Assembly (NCBI GenBank): GCA_017469355.1
Contig: JAFUGM010000058.1
Span: 1-64,000, forward strand
Direction of reading: 5' to 3'
DNA: 64,000 nucleotides
DNA from: Solobacterium sp.
GTDB taxonomy: Bacteria; Bacillota_I; Bacilli_A; Erysipelotrichales; Erysipelotrichaceae
Positions 1-52,726 of this stretch are shown piece after piece (the stretch's first letter is position 1; each line of letters begins with the position of its first letter). A model generated the notes under the pieces. The model was not told the origin of the DNA. It was given only the letters and a program-made list of their open reading frames with translations, and ran no database searches. The translations under genes were made by a program, and so were the position numbers.

Positions 1-138
1 ATATTTGGGGTTGGAATCCAATGGTTGTTTGAAGAGCCGTATGCGGGAGAATCGCACGTACGGTTCTGTGAGGGGCGTCAGGCAAGCCTTTCACAAGTTT
101 ATTTTGTTTGAAAGGAGTGTCGAGAATGCCTACTCGAC
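1..138 (+). mobile_element. 3' end of a group II intron (domains V and VI)
   Basis: Domain V lies at 34-66: an outer 8-bp stem (GAGCCGTA with TACGGTTC) carrying the AGC catalytic triad, an inner TGCG/CGCA stem, a two-base CG bulge and a small purine-rich loop, which is the bacterial group II consensus. Domain VI follows: bases 70-78 pair with 126-135, leaving A132 bulged as the expected branch-point adenosine. A further stem (87-93 with 109-115) sits at its tip. The CTACTCGAC ending at 138 resembles the 3' end of bacterial class C introns, so the splice site is placed near 138. Domains I-IV and any reverse transcriptase would lie upstream of the window. Whether the intron is still active cannot be seen. 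Confidence 0.82.
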
Positions 139-22691: not shown

Positions 22692-24455
22692 TCATCTTCT
22701 GGAATTTACAGCAATTCCGATGTAATCACAAAAACTGTTTGAGTCATTATCACGACTGATATTGAAATATGAAATTCTGGCAATGTGGTTATTCAGGAAA
22801 TATGACTCTGAGTTCAATGTCATTAGTACATGCATATGTTCTGAAAGATCATGTGTAATAACCAACAGGGTATCTGCATCGATAAAGGAGGTGCTGATTG
22901 CTTCTGGTAAAGGAACTGACCGGTACTTTTCTAATAGATCTTTCCATGAGTCATCTGAGGAATTCACTTGAATCTCAGAAGTCTGGAATTGCTCTATAAA
23001 CCGCTGGATAGACTGAATTCGAAGTTGATTATATTTCTGTCTGATCTGGCGGGAGATCATTTCCGACTGGTAAGCTTCTTCAAACAAGTCTACATAAACC
23101 AGTTCCGGATATTCAAATACCAAGGAAGGCTCTGTGGTTAAAAACAATGCATCCTCATCAGAGTCATGGAATTTTTTTAGATAAAGATAAGAGGGAAAGA
23201 TACGTATGATCTCAATATACGCACTGTAGCGTTCATATAATTCTTTGCGGAATCGGTATATATAAGCGACCGGCGCATCTGAAACGATATTGATACGCAG
23301 TTTTCCACCTGCACCATACATTAAAGACGCAATATATGGGACAAGCATATGTTCTTCTTCAGGAGGGATCTCCTCATCGAGGAGATCCCTCAGGATTGTA
23401 TGAACAAGATGAAAGGCAGCGGGATATTGGGATTCGATTAATGCAGAATGAGATGTCACAGGAGTGCTTCCGGTGTGAATTCGCTGTCTCATCCGATATA
23501 GCTGTTCGCAGAGATGTCTGATATAACCGTTGTCCTTCGAAAAGCGGATACCGGTATCTGCTTCTGCTTTGCGAAAGAAACGGTGCACAAGTTCCTCAAT
23601 CTCCGGGTAACTTTTTCGCGCTGATCCAATACGATTAAACTCTTCATAGCGACGACTCAAGCACATAAGCTCCGTTTCATCCAGATGTGTTGCGAACGAT
23701 TCTTCCATGCGTGTCACGATTCGCTGCAGGGTGGGATCTACTGGATGCGGAGAAGGAGAAGAGGTGTGTATAAATCCATAGGATGGTCTGATAATTGCCA
23801 GAGCACAATGGCGGATAAATGGAAGGAATGAATTTCCCTCTACGATATCTGACTCCGATGTAAGGACGTCGATGACGATGTTTTCCATGGGTTCAAGTGT
23901 ATCGTATAATTCCTTGACCGCTTCGTATTGCTTTCCTACTTCCGTGATCTTATCAGGAAGAAAGTTTACTATCAAAATTCGTTTGATATATTCTGGTGCT
24001 TCCAGCCGAAATCCTTTTCTTGGATGAACACATAGTTCCGCGTGTTTCGTGTCTGAAATGATCTGCCTGACTTTACTTAGATTGAAGTTAACTGATGAAG
24101 GCGCAAGGAACGTTCGATCAGCTATTTCGTTGATGGTTATATAATCCGTTTCATATAACAGAATGGTAAGGATGTCCGAAATATTATGAAGTGGATCAGC
24201 CAGTGGGACAGGTTTCTGTTTGGCGATATAGGCTTTCAGCTGAGTTCGGTTTCCCTCAAGATAGTATCCGAGACGATGGTTAGAGGCGATCTTTATCGTT
24301 GTGAAGTTCTGGCGCAGCAATCGGTTCACCTGAGCAATTTCGCCCTGAAGCGTACGAGCACTGATATATAACATGTTCGCAAGAACTTTTCCAGGCAGCC
24401 ATTCTTCTCTTCCCAGAAGGATCGCAAGGAGTTTTAGATCACGATCATTGAACAT
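22692..24455 (-). CDS. PRD-containing transcriptional regulator of the PTS operon
   Basis: A 587-residue multidomain regulator of the MtlR/LicR/BglG-like class: two N-terminal helix-turn-helix regions (about residues 1-60 and 90-140), then PTS regulation domains with histidines in FIRHCAL and GYIRHLCEQLYRMRQ, then an EIIB-like region starting with LRINIVSD and a C-terminal segment resembling the EIIA end of such proteins. PTS components phosphorylate these domains to couple sugar uptake to transcription. It precedes the PTS permease and should control it. The start at 24455 fits the family; no ribosome binding site precedes it, and a TATTAT -10 box ends only 9 bases upstream. Confidence 0.88.
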   Translation of the reverse strand: MFNDRDLKLLAILLGREEWLPGKVLANMLYISARTLQGEIAQVNRLLRQNFTTIKIASNHRLGYYLEGNRTQLKAYIAKQKPVPLADPLHNISDILTILLYETDYITINEIADRTFLAPSSVNFNLSKVRQIISDTKHAELCVHPRKGFRLEAPEYIKRILIVNFLPDKITEVGKQYEAVKELYDTLEPMENIVIDVLTSESDIVEGNSFLPFIRHCALAIIRPSYGFIHTSSPSPHPVDPTLQRIVTRMEESFATHLDETELMCLSRRYEEFNRIGSARKSYPEIEELVHRFFRKAEADTGIRFSKDNGYIRHLCEQLYRMRQRIHTGSTPVTSHSALIESQYPAAFHLVHTILRDLLDEEIPPEEEHMLVPYIASLMYGAGGKLRINIVSDAPVAYIYRFRKELYERYSAYIEIIRIFPSYLYLKKFHDSDEDALFLTTEPSLVFEYPELVYVDLFEEAYQSEMISRQIRQKYNQLRIQSIQRFIEQFQTSEIQVNSSDDSWKDLLEKYRSVPLPEAISTSFIDADTLLVITHDLSEHMHVLMTLNSESYFLNNHIARISYFNISRDNDSNSFCDYIGIAVNSRR

Positions 24456-24580
24456 GGATTTATGATAATACAAGAACTTGATGGTTTGGGAACCTGCTAT
24501 AACGTAGTATTGATAATTGCTATTGGCGGGAGGAATTCTCCCGCTTTTACAATGAAGAAAAAGCAAGGGGTGTTTTTGTT

Positions 24581-32562: not shown

Positions 32563-32684
32563 AGGGTCCTCCTTTCTTCGAATTGTGTGACAGGTTCTGT
32601 TTCTGTTTTTATCATACCGTGTTTCCAGCGCTTTTTGTGAAAAGAGAAATGATCTCTGCTTTCCGCATGAGTGAGAACAGTTTT

Positions 32685-32693
32685 TGTTAAAAT
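32685..32693 (+). promoter_or_regulatory. Extended -10 promoter of the beta-galactosidase gene
   Basis: TGTTAAAAT is an extended -10 (TGn plus TAAAAT). Its last base is six bases before the ATG at 32700, which places the predicted transcription start on the A of the start codon. Confidence 0.55.
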
Positions 32694-32699
32694 GGTTCT

Positions 32700-35330
32700 A
32701 TGAAGAAGTTCTTCGCCGGAATTCTCAGTGTTCTGTTTGCAGTATCGGGTATGCATGCCAATGTGGCTGCGGAACCCGACGTGTTTGTGGTACAGGGAAG
32801 GGATACCCTGTTCAACGATGGATGGATGTTTCAACGGCTTGAGGCAGATGCTTCACCAACTGAGGTAACTCTGCCGCATGATTGGTCCATTCAGGAAGAC
32901 TACAGCACGGACTATGAAGCGGAAAGTGGGTTTCTTCCCGGTGGAAGTGCAATCTATACAAGAGAACTGGTTCTTCCAGAATCCCTGCAGGGGAAACGGG
33001 TCGTGCTGGAGTTTGAAGGAGTGTCAATGAATGCGGAAGTCTCTGTTAATGGACGACAGTTAGGAACGCATCCCTATGGCTACACTTCATTTGCGTTTGA
33101 TCTCACACAGGATCTCATCATGGATGGAATAACATCCAATCAGATTGAGGTGGCTGTGACGAATCAGATTCCTTCCAGCCGATGGTATTCGGGAAGCGGA
33201 ATCTATCGGGATGTTCATCTGATCGTTACCGATCCGGTTCATATTGAGCGGAATGGAATTACGATCGAAGCACCGGATCTTTCTTCTTCCTCTGGCCGTA
33301 CGGAACTGAAAGTGAAAGCAGTAAATCAATCGCAGACGGATTCCATTGTTTCCCTTCATACGACCGTCTTCGATCCTGAGGGACATCAGGTAAGTGAAGT
33401 GATGAGTGAGCCGATCCGTATGGATTCTGAACAGGAAACCGTGCTGCATCAGGAGGTCATGGTTGAAGAACCCAGACTCTGGAGTCTGAGTGATCCGGTA
33501 CGCTATCGGTTTGAAACAGAACTGGTAGAAGCGGATGGAACGGTTCTTGACCATGTGGAGACGTTGTTTGGATATCGCTATTTCAGCTTTGATTCAAATA
33601 CCGGCTTTTCTTTGAATGGGGAACCGGTCAAATTGAAAGGCGTCTGTCTTCATCATGATCTTGGGGCACTGGGGGCAGCGTCAGTCAAAGCCGCCTGGAG
33701 TTATCGGCTTGACCTGTTGCGTGAGATGGGAGTTAATGCGATTCGCATTGCCCATAACCCGGCAGATTCCACTCTGCTTGAACTCTGTGATGAAATGGGA
33801 ATCCTTGTGGTTGAGGAGGCGTTTGACACCTGGTCCAACAACAAGAACTACAACTGGAATGATTACGGGAGTATTTTTCTTGAAACGATAGAAAAGGACA
33901 ATGAAATTCTCGATGGACAGGCGGGAATGACCTGGGCAGAGTTTGACATTAAGGCGATGACTGCCCACTCCCTCAACCATCCGTCGGTCATTCTTTATTC
34001 CATCGGCAACGAAATTCTTGGGAATATCGGCGGAGATACCAGTGCATATCCTCTCTATGCGGAACAGTTAATTTCCTGGATTCAGGAGATCAGCGATTCT
34101 CGTCCGGTTACGATTGCAGATAATATGACTCTGAATGAAACAGAGATCCAGCTTGCGCTGGATTCGGCGGTAGATCAGGAAGGCGGTGTTGTCGGCTTGA
34201 ATTATGCGACGGCAGAATCGATGGATCATCTTCATGAAGTATATTCGGACTGGAAACTGTTTGGCAGTGAGACTGCCAGTGCCTATGGCTCAAGAAGTGA
34301 ATATGGAACTTCAGGCATTGATGAATCACGCCATCAGATTACCGCATATGATCGGGAGTCCGTCGAATGGGGAACCACGGCTTCCCAGGCATGGAAGGAA
34401 ACGATAGAACGGGATTATATCGCCGGAGAGTTTGTCTGGACAGGCTTTGATTATATTGGTGAGCCAGAGCCCTGGAATGGACTGGAACCTGGATCCGTTA
34501 CGGATGGAAGTCCTGCGCCCAACAGTTCCTACTTTGGAATTCTGGATACGGCAGGACTGAAGAAGGATAGTTATTATTTCTATCAGAGCCAGTGGCGGGA
34601 GGACATCACTGTTGCGCATATTCTTCCCGATTGGCAGGAAGGAAACCTGAAACGGAGCCTGCTTGGGAAGGTGGACGTAGATGTTTATACCAATGCGCCG
34701 GCGATCGAACTGTTTCTTAATGGTGCCTCGTTGGGGAGAAAGACAGCAGAAACACATGAGACACCTGCTGGGTATCAATACCAGACCTATGAAGGCGAAC
34801 TCGTTCCGCATTGGAAGGTTTCGTATCATGAAGGTACACTTGAAGTTGTCGCATATGATGAAGATGGAAGTGTACTGGAGGTGGACAGCGGCAGAACCCA
34901 GGTGCACTCTGCCGGAGATCCGGTATCGATTCTGTTGACGGCAGACCATGGCACCCTGCGGGATAAAACGGATGTGATCTATGTCAGAGCGGATCTTCTG
35001 GATTCCTCTGGAACCATTGTCAGCGCATCAGACAGGGAACTGGAGTTTCAGCTGAATGGGGCTGGAACGATTCTTGGGGCAGATAATGGTGACCCGACGG
35101 ACTGCCAGAGATATCAGGACACCGATGGGCATACCATTACCCAGAGGTCTTTTCATGGGTCTGCGGTAGTGTTGGTTGGCGGAACGAATGAAGCAGGAGA
35201 AGTCACCCTGCGTGTAAGCGGCGAAGGGTTAAGTGAAGCAGTGATTCATCTATCTGCGGGGAGGAAACGGTCCAATGGACTGTTTGCCCGCATGATCACT
35301 GCAGTACAACAGATGGGAGGACAACAATGA
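32700..35330 (+). CDS. Secreted glycoside hydrolase family 2 beta-galactosidase-like enzyme
   Basis: An 876-residue GH2 enzyme. A signal peptide (MKKFFAGILSVLFAVSG..., cleavage near residue 24) precedes the sugar-binding jelly roll with LPHDWSI. An Ig-like domain and the TIM barrel follow. The acid/base is Glu438 in SIGNEI and the nucleophile Glu524 in FGSETAS. C-terminal DUF4982-like and Ig-like domains complete it. There is no sortase motif, so it is probably secreted. No ribosome binding site precedes the ATG and the -10 box is only 6 bases away. Its stop overlaps the start of a ROK kinase gene. True substrate could be another beta-galactoside or a glucuronide. Confidence 0.92.
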   Translation: MKKFFAGILSVLFAVSGMHANVAAEPDVFVVQGRDTLFNDGWMFQRLEADASPTEVTLPHDWSIQEDYSTDYEAESGFLPGGSAIYTRELVLPESLQGKRVVLEFEGVSMNAEVSVNGRQLGTHPYGYTSFAFDLTQDLIMDGITSNQIEVAVTNQIPSSRWYSGSGIYRDVHLIVTDPVHIERNGITIEAPDLSSSSGRTELKVKAVNQSQTDSIVSLHTTVFDPEGHQVSEVMSEPIRMDSEQETVLHQEVMVEEPRLWSLSDPVRYRFETELVEADGTVLDHVETLFGYRYFSFDSNTGFSLNGEPVKLKGVCLHHDLGALGAASVKAAWSYRLDLLREMGVNAIRIAHNPADSTLLELCDEMGILVVEEAFDTWSNNKNYNWNDYGSIFLETIEKDNEILDGQAGMTWAEFDIKAMTAHSLNHPSVILYSIGNEILGNIGGDTSAYPLYAEQLISWIQEISDSRPVTIADNMTLNETEIQLALDSAVDQEGGVVGLNYATAESMDHLHEVYSDWKLFGSETASAYGSRSEYGTSGIDESRHQITAYDRESVEWGTTASQAWKETIERDYIAGEFVWTGFDYIGEPEPWNGLEPGSVTDGSPAPNSSYFGILDTAGLKKDSYYFYQSQWREDITVAHILPDWQEGNLKRSLLGKVDVDVYTNAPAIELFLNGASLGRKTAETHETPAGYQYQTYEGELVPHWKVSYHEGTLEVVAYDEDGSVLEVDSGRTQVHSAGDPVSILLTADHGTLRDKTDVIYVRADLLDSSGTIVSASDRELEFQLNGAGTILGADNGDPTDCQRYQDTDGHTITQRSFHGSAVVLVGGTNEAGEVTLRVSGEGLSEAVIHLSAGRKRSNGLFARMITAVQQMGGQQ

Positions 35331-36250
35331 ATTATCTGGTATTTGACTGGGGCGGAACATTTTTGAAGTATGCCATTATGAATGAAGAGACGGATATTCT
35401 GGAGAAGTCCAAAGTGCCTGCACCGTCAGTTGAAGCGTCGGTGGAGGAAATGCTGGAGCGGATTGATCCGATCGTAGAACAATATCGGGACAGCGTGCAG
35501 GGGATTGCGATTTCCATGCCGGGAATGTTGAATGACCGCAACGGTTATTGCCGTACCGCAGGCTCCCTTCGGTTTTTTACCGGAATTACGGTAGGAACAC
35601 TTCTCCATGAACGCTATCATCTGCCGGTTTCAGTCCAGAATGATGGGAAGAGTGCGGTGCTTGCGGAGCACTGGAAAGGGGCCTTACAGGGATGTAAAGA
35701 CTGCGCCGTGATCGTCATCGGAACTGGAATCGGAGGCGGAATCATACTGAATGATCGGCTGCTTGTCGGAAAAGATTTCTCCGCTGGTGAGTACAGTTTT
35801 CTGAATACCAATGATTCAATCACAGATTCCTGGGATGGATACTGGTGTCGGAATGGGCATACAGCTCTTGGGGAGTATGTCGCTTCCAAAACCGGAGAGT
35901 CCCCCGATACCTTGAATGGCATAGAGATCTTCCGCCGCATTCGGGAAGATGATGATCCGATTGCCAAAGAGGCACTGCGCCATCTGACGGATGCCTATGC
36001 GGTGCAGATCTACAACCTTGCGATCCTGCTTGATCTTGAGCGGATCGCTATTGGCGGAGGAATTTCGGAAGATCCGCTTTTGATGGAATACCTGTATGAC
36101 AGTATCCGTAAGATGCGGTCGAATCTGCCTTTTGAGGTCTACAGTGAACTGTTGCCGGAGGCAGAAGTGGTCGTATGCCGGTATCACAACGATGCCAATC
36201 TGATTGGCGCACTGTATCATCACCTGTATGGGGAATGGGAGAACCGATAG
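35327..36250 (+). CDS. ROK-family sugar kinase
   Basis: A 307-residue ROK protein without a DNA-binding domain, so a kinase rather than a repressor. The phosphate-binding loop DWGGTFLKYAI is at the start, the catalytic Asp is in VQNDGK, and GTGIGGGI follows. The usual ROK zinc motif CxCGxxGC is degraded (WCRNGHTALGEY). It probably phosphorylates a hexose released by the GH2 enzyme, whose stop codon overlaps its ATG. A GGGAGGACAAC site precedes the start. Confidence 0.9.
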   Translation: MNYLVFDWGGTFLKYAIMNEETDILEKSKVPAPSVEASVEEMLERIDPIVEQYRDSVQGIAISMPGMLNDRNGYCRTAGSLRFFTGITVGTLLHERYHLPVSVQNDGKSAVLAEHWKGALQGCKDCAVIVIGTGIGGGIILNDRLLVGKDFSAGEYSFLNTNDSITDSWDGYWCRNGHTALGEYVASKTGESPDTLNGIEIFRRIREDDDPIAKEALRHLTDAYAVQIYNLAILLDLERIAIGGGISEDPLLMEYLYDSIRKMRSNLPFEVYSELLPEAEVVVCRYHNDANLIGALYHHLYGEWENR

Positions 36251-47144: not shown

Positions 47145-47939
47145 TCAATCCAGCAGACCCAGGGTGCGGAATGCGTTTACGAGTCCATCCTGATCCACAT
47201 GATCTGTCACAAGATCTGCGGCTGCTTTTACATGATCTGGAGCGTTTCCCATTGCGACACCAATCGGTGCGTACTTCAACATCTGGATATCATTTCCGCC
47301 ATCCCCAAAGGTAATACAGGATTCCTGTGGGAAGCCAATGTGTTCCAGCATCGCCTTGATGCCTTCCTGCTTTCCGCCATCGTTTGGAATCATATCCGCA
47401 AAGACATTCGTCCAGCGTGCGCATTGGATTCCCGGTGCCAGCGCAAGGAATTCCGCATCCATCGATTCATCCATATACGGGCATACCTGAATGGTTGAGT
47501 GTGTATAGGAACGGCGCGCATCCAGCACCTTCAGTTCTCTGCGAGGTTTTCCTGTGCGTTTTGATTCTTCCTGAAGCAGTGGATTGGGAAGATTGGAATA
47601 GGTGAAGTCCAGTTCATAGAAATTCGCTGGAATCTGATGTTCTTCCAGCCATGGGACAATGGCCATGAGATCTTCGGTCGGGATATAGGCAGTGCGAATG
47701 ATCCTGCGTGTTTTATCCATACAGACCTGCCCGTTTGCGGCGATGATGCCATCCCAGGGGAAGGTCTTGAGATCATCCCCAAGCAGTTCAATGGTTCCAG
47801 GTGGACGCCCTGTACAAAGAAACAGGCGATGACCACGCTCATGAAGAATACGAAGTGCTTCCAGTGCAGAGGGAGGAATCCGTCCGGTTTGATAAGAGAC
47901 GAGGGTTCCGTCAATGTCAAAAAATAATGCGTGCTTCAT
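47145..47939 (-). CDS. HAD-superfamily Cof-type phosphatase
   Basis: A 264-residue Cof/YbiV-type (type IIB) HAD hydrolase. Motif I is FFDIDGTL (nucleophile Asp8, acid Asp10), motif II is the CTGR threonine, motif III a lysine in the cap-adjacent region, and motif IV FGDGGNDIQML, then GVAMGNA. These enzymes act broadly on sugar phosphates, pyridoxal phosphate or FMN. It lies ahead of the lipoprotein gene. Confidence 0.92.
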   Translation of the reverse strand: MKHALFFDIDGTLVSYQTGRIPPSALEALRILHERGHRLFLCTGRPPGTIELLGDDLKTFPWDGIIAANGQVCMDKTRRIIRTAYIPTEDLMAIVPWLEEHQIPANFYELDFTYSNLPNPLLQEESKRTGKPRRELKVLDARRSYTHSTIQVCPYMDESMDAEFLALAPGIQCARWTNVFADMIPNDGGKQEGIKAMLEHIGFPQESCITFGDGGNDIQMLKYAPIGVAMGNAPDHVKAAADLVTDHVDQDGLVNAFRTLGLLD

Positions 47940-51312: not shown

Positions 51313-51339
51313 AGAATCGGAACGATCCGGTTCTTTTTA
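51313..51339 (+). terminator. Terminator of the histone-like gene
   Basis: AGAATCGGA and TCCGGTTCT pair around ACGA, then TTTTTAT. Confidence 0.88.
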
Positions 51340-51855
51340 TATCCTGCTTACTGTGACACAAAGTGCCAGCGCATACACCAGTTCACTCCATCCGTTAATC
51401 GAGGAAGAAAGTAATGCCACAAAGAATGCGGTGAACGTCATGGCGTAATAAAACAACGACAGGGTTTTCTTTGGCCATAGCAGATAAAACAACAGCCGGT
51501 TCAGATCCAGAAAACAGATCAGTGCCAATAACAGATGAAGATTGGTCGACAGGTCTGCTTCCCTGCGATATGGAACCGCACATAATGTCACAGTCAGAAC
51601 AAACAGCACAAGACATTCTCTTTGCCAGGATGAGCGAGACATGATATGTAATCCGGATCGATAGATCCGAAGGGAAAAGTAGAGCAGTGGAACACAGAGA
51701 AACAATGCGGTTTTGATGGGGGCAGCGGAAAACAGCCCGGTATAGTTCACATGGAAGGGATCTTCATGAAAAAACGGAATCGCACAAAGCAGAAAGGAAA
51801 CTGCGGCGCAGAGATTCTGTACATGCTTGCTTTGTTGCGGGGATGGCGTTGACAT
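51337..51855 (-). CDS. Small membrane protein of unknown function
   Basis: A 172-residue hydrophobic protein with four to five predicted helices and a short Ser/Pro/Gln-rich N-terminus (MSTPSPQQS). No family is recognised. The start at 51855 is chosen because a perfect TATAAT on the minus strand (complement of 51862-51867) ends exactly six bases before it; no ribosome binding site lies between. It diverges from pheA, whose promoter overlaps this one. Confidence 0.62.
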   Translation of the reverse strand: MSTPSPQQSKHVQNLCAAVSFLLCAIPFFHEDPFHVNYTGLFSAAPIKTALFLCVPLLYFSLRIYRSGLHIMSRSSWQRECLVLFVLTVTLCAVPYRREADLSTNLHLLLALICFLDLNRLLFYLLWPKKTLSLFYYAMTFTAFFVALLSSSINGWSELVYALALCVTVSRI

Positions 51856-51867
51856 AATAAAATTATA
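51835..51867. promoter_or_regulatory. Overlapping divergent promoters: pheA operon (+) and membrane gene (-)
   Basis: On the plus strand TTGCGG (51835-51840) and TAAAAT (51858-51863) are 17 bases apart and serve pheA. On the minus strand TATAAT (complement of 51862-51867) serves the 51855 gene. The two -10 boxes overlap, so the polymerases should exclude each other. Confidence 0.55.
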
Positions 51868-51889
51868 GTTCGTAAAGGACGGAACATAC

Positions 51890-52726
51890 ATGACAACGAG
51901 AGTCGGATATCAGGGAACCAACGGAACATTCAGTGAAATTGCTGTAATGCGTTATTTTGAAGGGCGTGATTACGAACCGAAGAATTATAAGAACTTTATT
52001 GATATTCTGAATGACTGTGACAGCGGTCTGCTCGATTATGCGCTTCTCCCGGTAGAAAATACAACGACCGGAGTCATTGCTCGAACGGTTGATCTGTTCC
52101 GGAATTATGGCATTCATGCGGTAGGGGAAATCACGGTTCCGATCCGTGAAGATCTGATCTCCATCCCTGGCGCAAAGCTGGAAGATATCAAGGAAGTATA
52201 CTCCCATCCAGAGGCTATTACCCAATGCAGTGAGTTCTTCGCAGCCCATCCGGATATCAAGGCAATTGCCTTTCAGGATACTGCCCGCTCGGTAGAGTAT
52301 GTCAAGGAATGTGCTGACCCATCCAAGGCAGCCCTGGGTTCTTCCAGAGCCGCAGAATACTATGGGCTGGAGTCCATTCTGCATAGTGTGCAGGATTCCA
52401 GTACGAATATGACCCGCTTTCTCTGCGTTACGGAAAAAAACGAGGTGGATCCGGAAGCGAATAAGATCAGTCTTTATTTTGCGGTAAAACATGAACCGGG
52501 CTCTCTGTATCAGGTGTTAGGAGTATTGGCGGATCGGAAGTTGAACATGGTGAAGCTGGAATCGCGCCCGATTCCCGGTCAGATATTTGAATATTGTTTC
52601 TATCTCGATTTTTCCGGAAATCTCAATGATGATAACGTGCGTCAGGCACTCACAGAGATTCGTAAGAGATGTGTGGAATGCCGGGTACTTGGCTGCTATA
52701 AGGCAGCAAGGGTGGAGACCCTTTAA
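51890..52726 (+). CDS. pheA: Prephenate dehydratase
   Basis: A 278-residue monofunctional PheA converting prephenate to phenylpyruvate. The catalytic domain opens with GYQGTNGTFSE, has PVENTTTG and the active-site TRF in STNMTRFL. The C-terminal ACT domain carries the phenylalanine-binding motifs GSLYQVL and ESRP, so feedback inhibition is expected. No chorismate mutase domain is attached. It is the first gene of the aromatic operon; AAAGGA precedes the ATG. Confidence 0.96.
   Translation: MTTRVGYQGTNGTFSEIAVMRYFEGRDYEPKNYKNFIDILNDCDSGLLDYALLPVENTTTGVIARTVDLFRNYGIHAVGEITVPIREDLISIPGAKLEDIKEVYSHPEAITQCSEFFAAHPDIKAIAFQDTARSVEYVKECADPSKAALGSSRAAEYYGLESILHSVQDSSTNMTRFLCVTEKNEVDPEANKISLYFAVKHEPGSLYQVLGVLADRKLNMVKLESRPIPGQIFEYCFYLDFSGNLNDDNVRQALTEIRKRCVECRVLGCYKAARVETL

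Follow-up and report, generated by a model that had tools for sequence, protein, structure and literature searches.

The window analysed here, the whole stretch of 64,000 nucleotides from a Solobacterium sp., belongs to a draft genome of 2.69 Mb in 92 contigs. Near its middle lies the gene of a GH2 glycosidase, which is followed on the same strand by a gene of the ROK family. The features of this locus are:

32587..32615, plus strand: competing promoter-like site GTGACA-17-TATCAT, transcripts from which would carry a leader of about 78 bases that lacks a Shine-Dalgarno (SD) site
32685..32693, plus strand: extended −10 element TGTTAAAAT of the GH2 gene, read from the sequence
32694..32699, plus strand: six-base spacer GGTTCT of the GH2 gene; gaps of 6-7 bases form the genome-wide peak
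32700..35330, plus strand: GH2 glycosidase, 876 aa, with Pfam GH2 domains above their cut-offs
35327..36250, plus strand: ROK-family gene, overlapping the GH2 stop and preceded by a good SD site

The start region of the GH2 gene reads TGT and TAAAAT (32685-32693), then GGTTCT and then ATG 32700, so that TG stands one base 5′ of the −10 (TGT, 32685-32687), as in an extended −10. An in-frame stop codon (TAA, 32688) lies just 5′, which makes 32700 the earliest start available. The initial annotation was right that TGTTAAAAT ends six bases before it without an SD site. The duplex energy with the anti-SD sequence is −2.7 kcal/mol for the GH2 gene; the gene that follows reaches −10.2 and the neighbour in divergent orientation −11.9. 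The GH2 transcript is predicted to begin on or close to the A of ATG 32700. The closest NCBIfam model for its product is the GalB beta-galactosidase (NF041463), which scores 616 bits and thus stays below its curated cut-off of 900; the N-terminus has the appearance of a signal peptide (judged by eye). On the same strand ATGGTTCTATGA (32691-32702) forms a three-codon open reading frame, out of the GH2 frame, whose stop overlaps the GH2 start (ATGA) and whose ATG would be missing from the transcript if the GH2 gene is leaderless. At the edge of the window (32-138, plus strand) there is a match to a group II intron RNA (RF00029, 58 bits).

A search of 60 genomes gave a match to the GH2 protein in 52, and 30 loci, the window's own included, were cut. 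The 20 best of the 29 others were examined (17 of the same genus and three of a sister family in the same order), and nine weaker matches were left aside. The layout was accepted with at most one mismatch, at a gap of 5-8 and at any candidate start no more than 150 bases from the expected position. It is kept in 15 of the 17 same-genus orthologs examined, every one at gap 6 or 7; nine of these 15 also have the TG 5′ of the −10, and two have GTG as their start codon. In L011 and L017, both among the 17, a stop lies inside the match. In all three sister-family orthologs examined the layout is absent, and these carry 7-base SD matches.

The retention of a −10 at gap 5-8 in 15 of 17 same-genus orthologs speaks against a reading in which the GH2 mRNA starts from the upstream site at 32587-32615 and carries an SD-less leader of about 78 bases, with TAAAAT as a chance match. 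The upstream site matches 10 of 12 consensus positions, and one promoter-like site was found in this region where 0.5 was expected. However, a long leader devoid of an SD site would be unusual, since 483 of the 804 genes used in the genome-wide analysis show an SD match of at least five bases at some candidate start, and this origin of the mRNA is considered improbable. Still less credible is a misassigned start, with the true one placed downstream behind a normal SD site. Extra in-frame ATG or GTG codons do occur at 32751-32787, 32751 being the next possible start, but initiation there or later would truncate the apparent signal peptide, and five orthologs of 55-57% identity have similar hydrophobic N-termini when read from the layout-bearing start (judged by eye). 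Initiation at ATG 32700 on a leaderless mRNA is the reading that we prefer.

The membrane-protein gene at 51855 and its divergent partner

A second gene with this layout lies on the minus strand, which the initial annotation left unstated when it correctly placed a TATAAT six bases before ATG 51855. The annotation had regarded the signal as strongest at the beta-galactosidase gene; this is not borne out, as the −10 of the gene at 51855 is the TATAAT consensus itself and this gene shows the better conservation. The features here are:

51337..51855, minus strand: membrane protein, 172 aa, with a predicted leaderless ATG at 51855 (from sequence, orthologs and a structure model)
51858..51863, plus strand: opposite-strand −10 TAAAAT, facing pheA and overlapping the putative leaderless promoter; found in 16 of 22 family members, with a predicted start near 51870
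51862..51867, minus strand: −10 TATAAT of the small membrane-protein gene, read from the sequence, six bases before ATG 51855
51890..52726, plus strand: prephenate dehydratase gene pheA (PF00800 match), SD-led, the divergent partner

The membrane protein was matched in 22 of 60 genomes searched, its own included, and all of them belong to the genus. When the 22 members are aligned at the start picked by the layout, an exact TATAAT at gap 6 is found in 17, TACAAT at gap 6 in one and TATCAT at gap 7 in two, while the remaining members have TATAAT at gap 9 (one) and gap 10 (one); one of the 22 starts is GTG. The layout at gap 6-7 is thus present in 20 of 22 members, at a protein identity to the window's copy of 20-39%. 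The conserved columns are −12 to −7 together with −4, −3 and −1, and neither a −35 box nor an SD site stands out as conserved in the alignment of 22 members. TG is absent one base upstream of the −10 at 51855.

The protein itself has five residues that are invariant in the 22 members (M1, N37, Y96, H107 and E158), and its structure model is helical and confident (pLDDT 94.5). Comparison of the model with the PDB gave no fold match (best E=0.78), and the window's protein hit no Pfam family at 0.001 and no NCBIfam family at 0.01; scanned singly, the 22 members gave scattered Pfam matches, the best being DUF6136 at 4e-6 in one member. The family often adjoins pheA or aroC, so that it is perhaps tied to aromatic amino acids.

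An ATG at 51891 is in frame and upstream of 51855, and a −10 of the opposite strand is present in the 51855 promoter, both of which would fit translation from 51891, the −10 near 51862 being then internal and serving only pheA on the other strand. Yet 14 of the 22 members lack any in-frame start codon upstream of the layout-bearing start, the other 21 all lack an ATG corresponding to 51891, and the ATG at 51891 is itself without an SD site. Likewise, 17 members have the exact TATAAT at gap 6 in the orientation of the gene itself, which speaks for a start at 51855, and we give the upstream start hardly any weight.

With the start of the membrane-protein gene taken at 51855, its promoter looks bidirectional, the other arm leading to an SD-led pheA. 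The predicted pheA mRNA would start near 51870 and have a leader of about 20 bases containing AAAGGA. At positions −3 to −8 of the family alignment, 16 of 22 members carry an opposite-strand −10, mostly TAAAAT or TAGAAT, and the conserved columns −4 and −3 fit such a second −10; it is mainly on these two columns that the count bears, because the last two bases of the element come from the gene's own −10. The two −10s thus overlap on opposite strands at a fixed spacing. The divergent partner is of pheA type in 12 of 22 members, of aroC type in four, and other or not visible in six. Partners were labelled as pheA-type where their first residues resemble those of the window's pheA, and as aroC-type by a GESHG motif which we take to be characteristic of that protein.

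Tentatively, the 15 bases of TATAATTYTANTATG may be a promoter, a start codon and a divergent promoter fused into one element, with a leaderless arm for the membrane protein and an SD-led arm for the aromatic gene. The element persists even though protein identity has fallen to 20-39% and the partner alternates between pheA and aroC. If such a switch exists, the relative amounts of both proteins could track the state of the ribosomes (leaderless versus SD initiation) as well as polymerase orientation. Bidirectionality was also tried as a general origin of the leaderless genes and was rejected: the geometry of 51855 (offset +4) recurs in none of 31 divergent and one of 34 co-directional leaderless genes, and an offset of +1 is found in 7 of 31 divergent and 5 of 34 co-directional candidates.

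Candidate leaderless genes across the genome and the order

For the genome-wide analysis genes were called in 1,014,477 bases, where 834 were found and 804 used, 30 being dropped for an open frame or a position near a stretch edge. The gene caller and the EM procedure were purpose-written scripts, and the starts are computed calls. A hexamer was accepted if it had the form TANNNT with at most one mismatch to TATAAT, and its gap was counted from any in-frame candidate ATG. Under this rule 30, 23, 10, 11 and 10 of the 804 genes fall at gaps 6 to 10, whereas the flanking gaps hold 23 (0-5) and 29 (11-16) in total, or about four per gap; the expectation from these flanks for gaps 6 and 7 together is 8.7 genes, with double counting possible in the 30 and 23. 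A second, broad rise at 20-30 bases is that expected of ordinary leaders. When a single called ATG is used per gene the peak is smaller (15, 8 and 8 at gaps 6-8, with 7 in total at gaps 0-5). The 1421 in-frame candidate ATGs that give the 30 and 23 can be set against 1335 out-of-frame decoys within 60 bases of called starts, which give only 3 and 2, and against in-frame ATGs inside genes (at most three from each), which give 9 and 2.

A mixture model with three classes (SD, promoter with a free gap of 0-40, and none) was fitted by EM and converged on TATAAT, with gaps 6 and 7 weighted most heavily; part of the promoter class lies at leader-like gaps above 20. It assigned 67 of 804 genes to gaps 5-8 with a posterior above 0.5, and 35 of them above 0.9. 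Genes of the class are found more often than SD-led genes at the head of transcription units. A divergent gene lies upstream of 31 of 65 leaderless candidates and 61 of 400 SD-led genes (p=3e-8; two leaderless and 15 SD-led genes at stretch edges were excluded), and the upstream gene is at a median distance of 99 bases in the leaderless class versus 18 for SD-led genes. A pyrimidine at −1 is expected of transcription starts, which commonly form a YR initiator; it is found in 53 of 67 genes of the class versus 281 of 405, with no significant enrichment (p=0.11). Codon bias per codon is lower in the class (0.155 versus 0.185, n=67 and 767, p=7e-6), which could reflect lower expression or some false genes. 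Among the candidates scanned (30 of the 67 and some more) there are replication and repair proteins (DnaE, PriA, a MutY-like glycosylase, O6-methylguanine methyltransferase, a SNF2 helicase, MgsA/RarA and a PD-(D/E)XK nuclease), regulators (LacI, AraC, WYL, two with sigma-70 regions and a response regulator) and envelope or sugar enzymes; no functional enrichment is claimed, because the scan had no control set.

The mixture model placed the GH2 gene, the gene at 24455 and, more weakly, that at 47939 in the class, and the gene at 51855 is absent from the genome-wide counts because the gene-calling script missed it. The further candidates in the window are:

22692..24455, minus strand: Mga/PRD-type regulator, 587 aa, candidate leaderless gene by its layout, without an SD site
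24462..24467, minus strand: −10 TATCAT, six bases before ATG 24455, overlapping the TATTAT (24465-24470) of the initial annotation
47145..47939, minus strand: HAD-type phosphatase, a weaker leaderless candidate (posterior 0.87)

At 24455 the TATTAT nine bases out does exist, on the minus strand that the initial annotation did not name, and the overlapping TATCAT is nearer the start; the sole close ortholog of the regulator lacks the layout, and the gene probably belongs to the leaderless class. Anti-SD duplex energies of the three cases that had been singled out are −2.7, −0.1 and +0.8, versus −7.9 to −11.9 for three neighbours. The priA gene, of leaderless type in genome G000, was followed in 29 relatives whose loci were cut (L285-L311 among the priA orthologs), of which the 26 with a readable start were counted. 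The layout is found in 9 of these 26 same-genus orthologs, the four nearest included, and an SD match of at least five bases in five, one of which (L290) is also among the nine. Within a single genus, priA thus has a leaderless-type start in some species and an SD-led one in others, and this difference between species makes it a test case for the gain and loss of leaders.

Whole genomes were compared by the count of exact TATAATN{6,7}ATG against that of the frame-matched TATAATN{12,13}ATG. In 36 genomes of the genus these counts are 2969 and 1804, with a ratio above 1 in every one (81 versus 35 in G000). Sixty-six genomes from 42 other genera of the family that holds the window gave 8308 versus 6892, unevenly distributed: z exceeds 3 in 12 genomes and 2 in 23, and is below −2 in one (G144). 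A strong excess marks six of these genera (g19, g23, g25, g27, g45 and g52) and three show none (g18, g20 and g37). The biggest excess of the order-wide sample, 96 versus 21, belongs to G138 of genus g52, and two genomes of the family (G079 and G096) lack TATAATN{6,7}ATG altogether over 2.3 Mb each; they are perhaps very GC-rich or use other promoters. The sister family as a whole shows no excess (43 genomes, 10873 versus 10918, ratio 1.00), the top genome among 19 of a second survey being G090 with z=2.5. The genomes sampled from the two families are not alike in GC content, and sister-family genomes with a low background are without an excess too (54 versus 57 in G046, 106 versus 109 in G055). 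Gene-based samples of 200 kb point weakly in the same direction. Three relatives of the same genus have 17 of 474 genes at gaps 6-7 with a background of 3.4 per gap, a weaker peak, and in two of these three samples the EM motif failed to settle on TATAAT; three sister-family genomes have 11 of 455 genes with a background of 8.5 per gap.

Proposed mode of expression and known leaderless systems

The initial annotation had suggested a distinct leaderless class, and this idea is supported by the gap peak, the out-of-frame decoys, the position in transcription units, the conservation among orthologs and the lineage distribution. It is very probable that a lineage-wide minority class of leaderless mRNAs exists, which would include those of the GH2 and 51855 genes and probably that of 24455. 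The positions of the transcription starts and the mode of initiation we infer. The lineage would have mRNAs with two types of 5′ end, most genes being SD-led and a minority (about 8% of the sampled genes) leaderless. In the minority the −10 of a sigma-A-type promoter would stand at a constant 6-7 bases from the start codon, which would make polymerase start at or beside the A of AUG and leave the mRNA without a leader. Ribosomes would then recognise the 5′-terminal AUG together with the initiator tRNA and not an SD site. Leaderless initiation elsewhere uses a 5′-terminal AUG with initiator tRNA rather than the SD interaction. The same recognition is stated in PMC6431027 and PMC10783764.

The mode of expression is of a known kind; for this lineage no record of it was found, and one of its examples here, at 51855, is unusually conserved. 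On the tree the class would extend across one genus and several other genera of the family, and it was not seen in the sister family. It would add a gut lineage to the Firmicutes with a standing class of leaderless genes, and gene finders that expect an SD site may assign wrong starts to these genes. The promoter at 51855, conserved as it is, offers a compact natural test for selection on the leaderless state itself.

As far as open-licence literature goes, no record of leaderless mRNAs in Erysipelotrichia was found, and the string 'Erysipelo' is absent from the main text of Zheng et al. 2011 (PMC3160421). According to that survey, TA-led genes make up on average 4.2% (2.4-16.6) in 56 of 209 Firmicutes genomes, and the leaderless genes of Firmicutes are concentrated in Lactobacillales and Mycoplasma (PMC3160421). 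The class described here resembles the TA-led genes, which are defined by a −10-like TANNNT close to the start (PMC3160421): the −10 stands at gap 6 for 32700, 51855 and 24455, and the genome-wide peak spans gaps 6 and 7. Leaderless mRNAs amount to under 1% in enterococci (PMC7724050) and to 15 genes in C. difficile (PMC7438776). A larger GeneMarkS-2 survey predicted leaderless use in 21.6% of bacterial species (cited in PMC9581028). The arrangement at 51855 recalls the bidirectional promoters of E. coli, where −10s overlap or are common to both strands and divergent starts are commonly 18, 10 or 23 bp apart (PMC12825309), about 15 bp being predicted at 51855; unlike those promoters, one arm would be leaderless, and the case is described here from its sequence.

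A close parallel is Streptococcus, where 5′-end mapping found 8.6% leaderless mRNAs in S. pyogenes and 8-9% in S. agalactiae, 81% of those of S. pyogenes being common to S. agalactiae (PMC6431027, PMC4448216). The present lineage belongs to another class of Bacillota (Erysipelotrichia), and its starts are predicted from DNA whereas those of Streptococcus are mapped. As far as these reports describe it, both are low-GC Gram-positive bacteria that are mostly SD-led, with a minority near 8% starting, or here predicted to start, at the A of AUG and conserved between species, and in both the class takes in a gene for a DNA polymerase III subunit, holA in Streptococcus and dnaE here.
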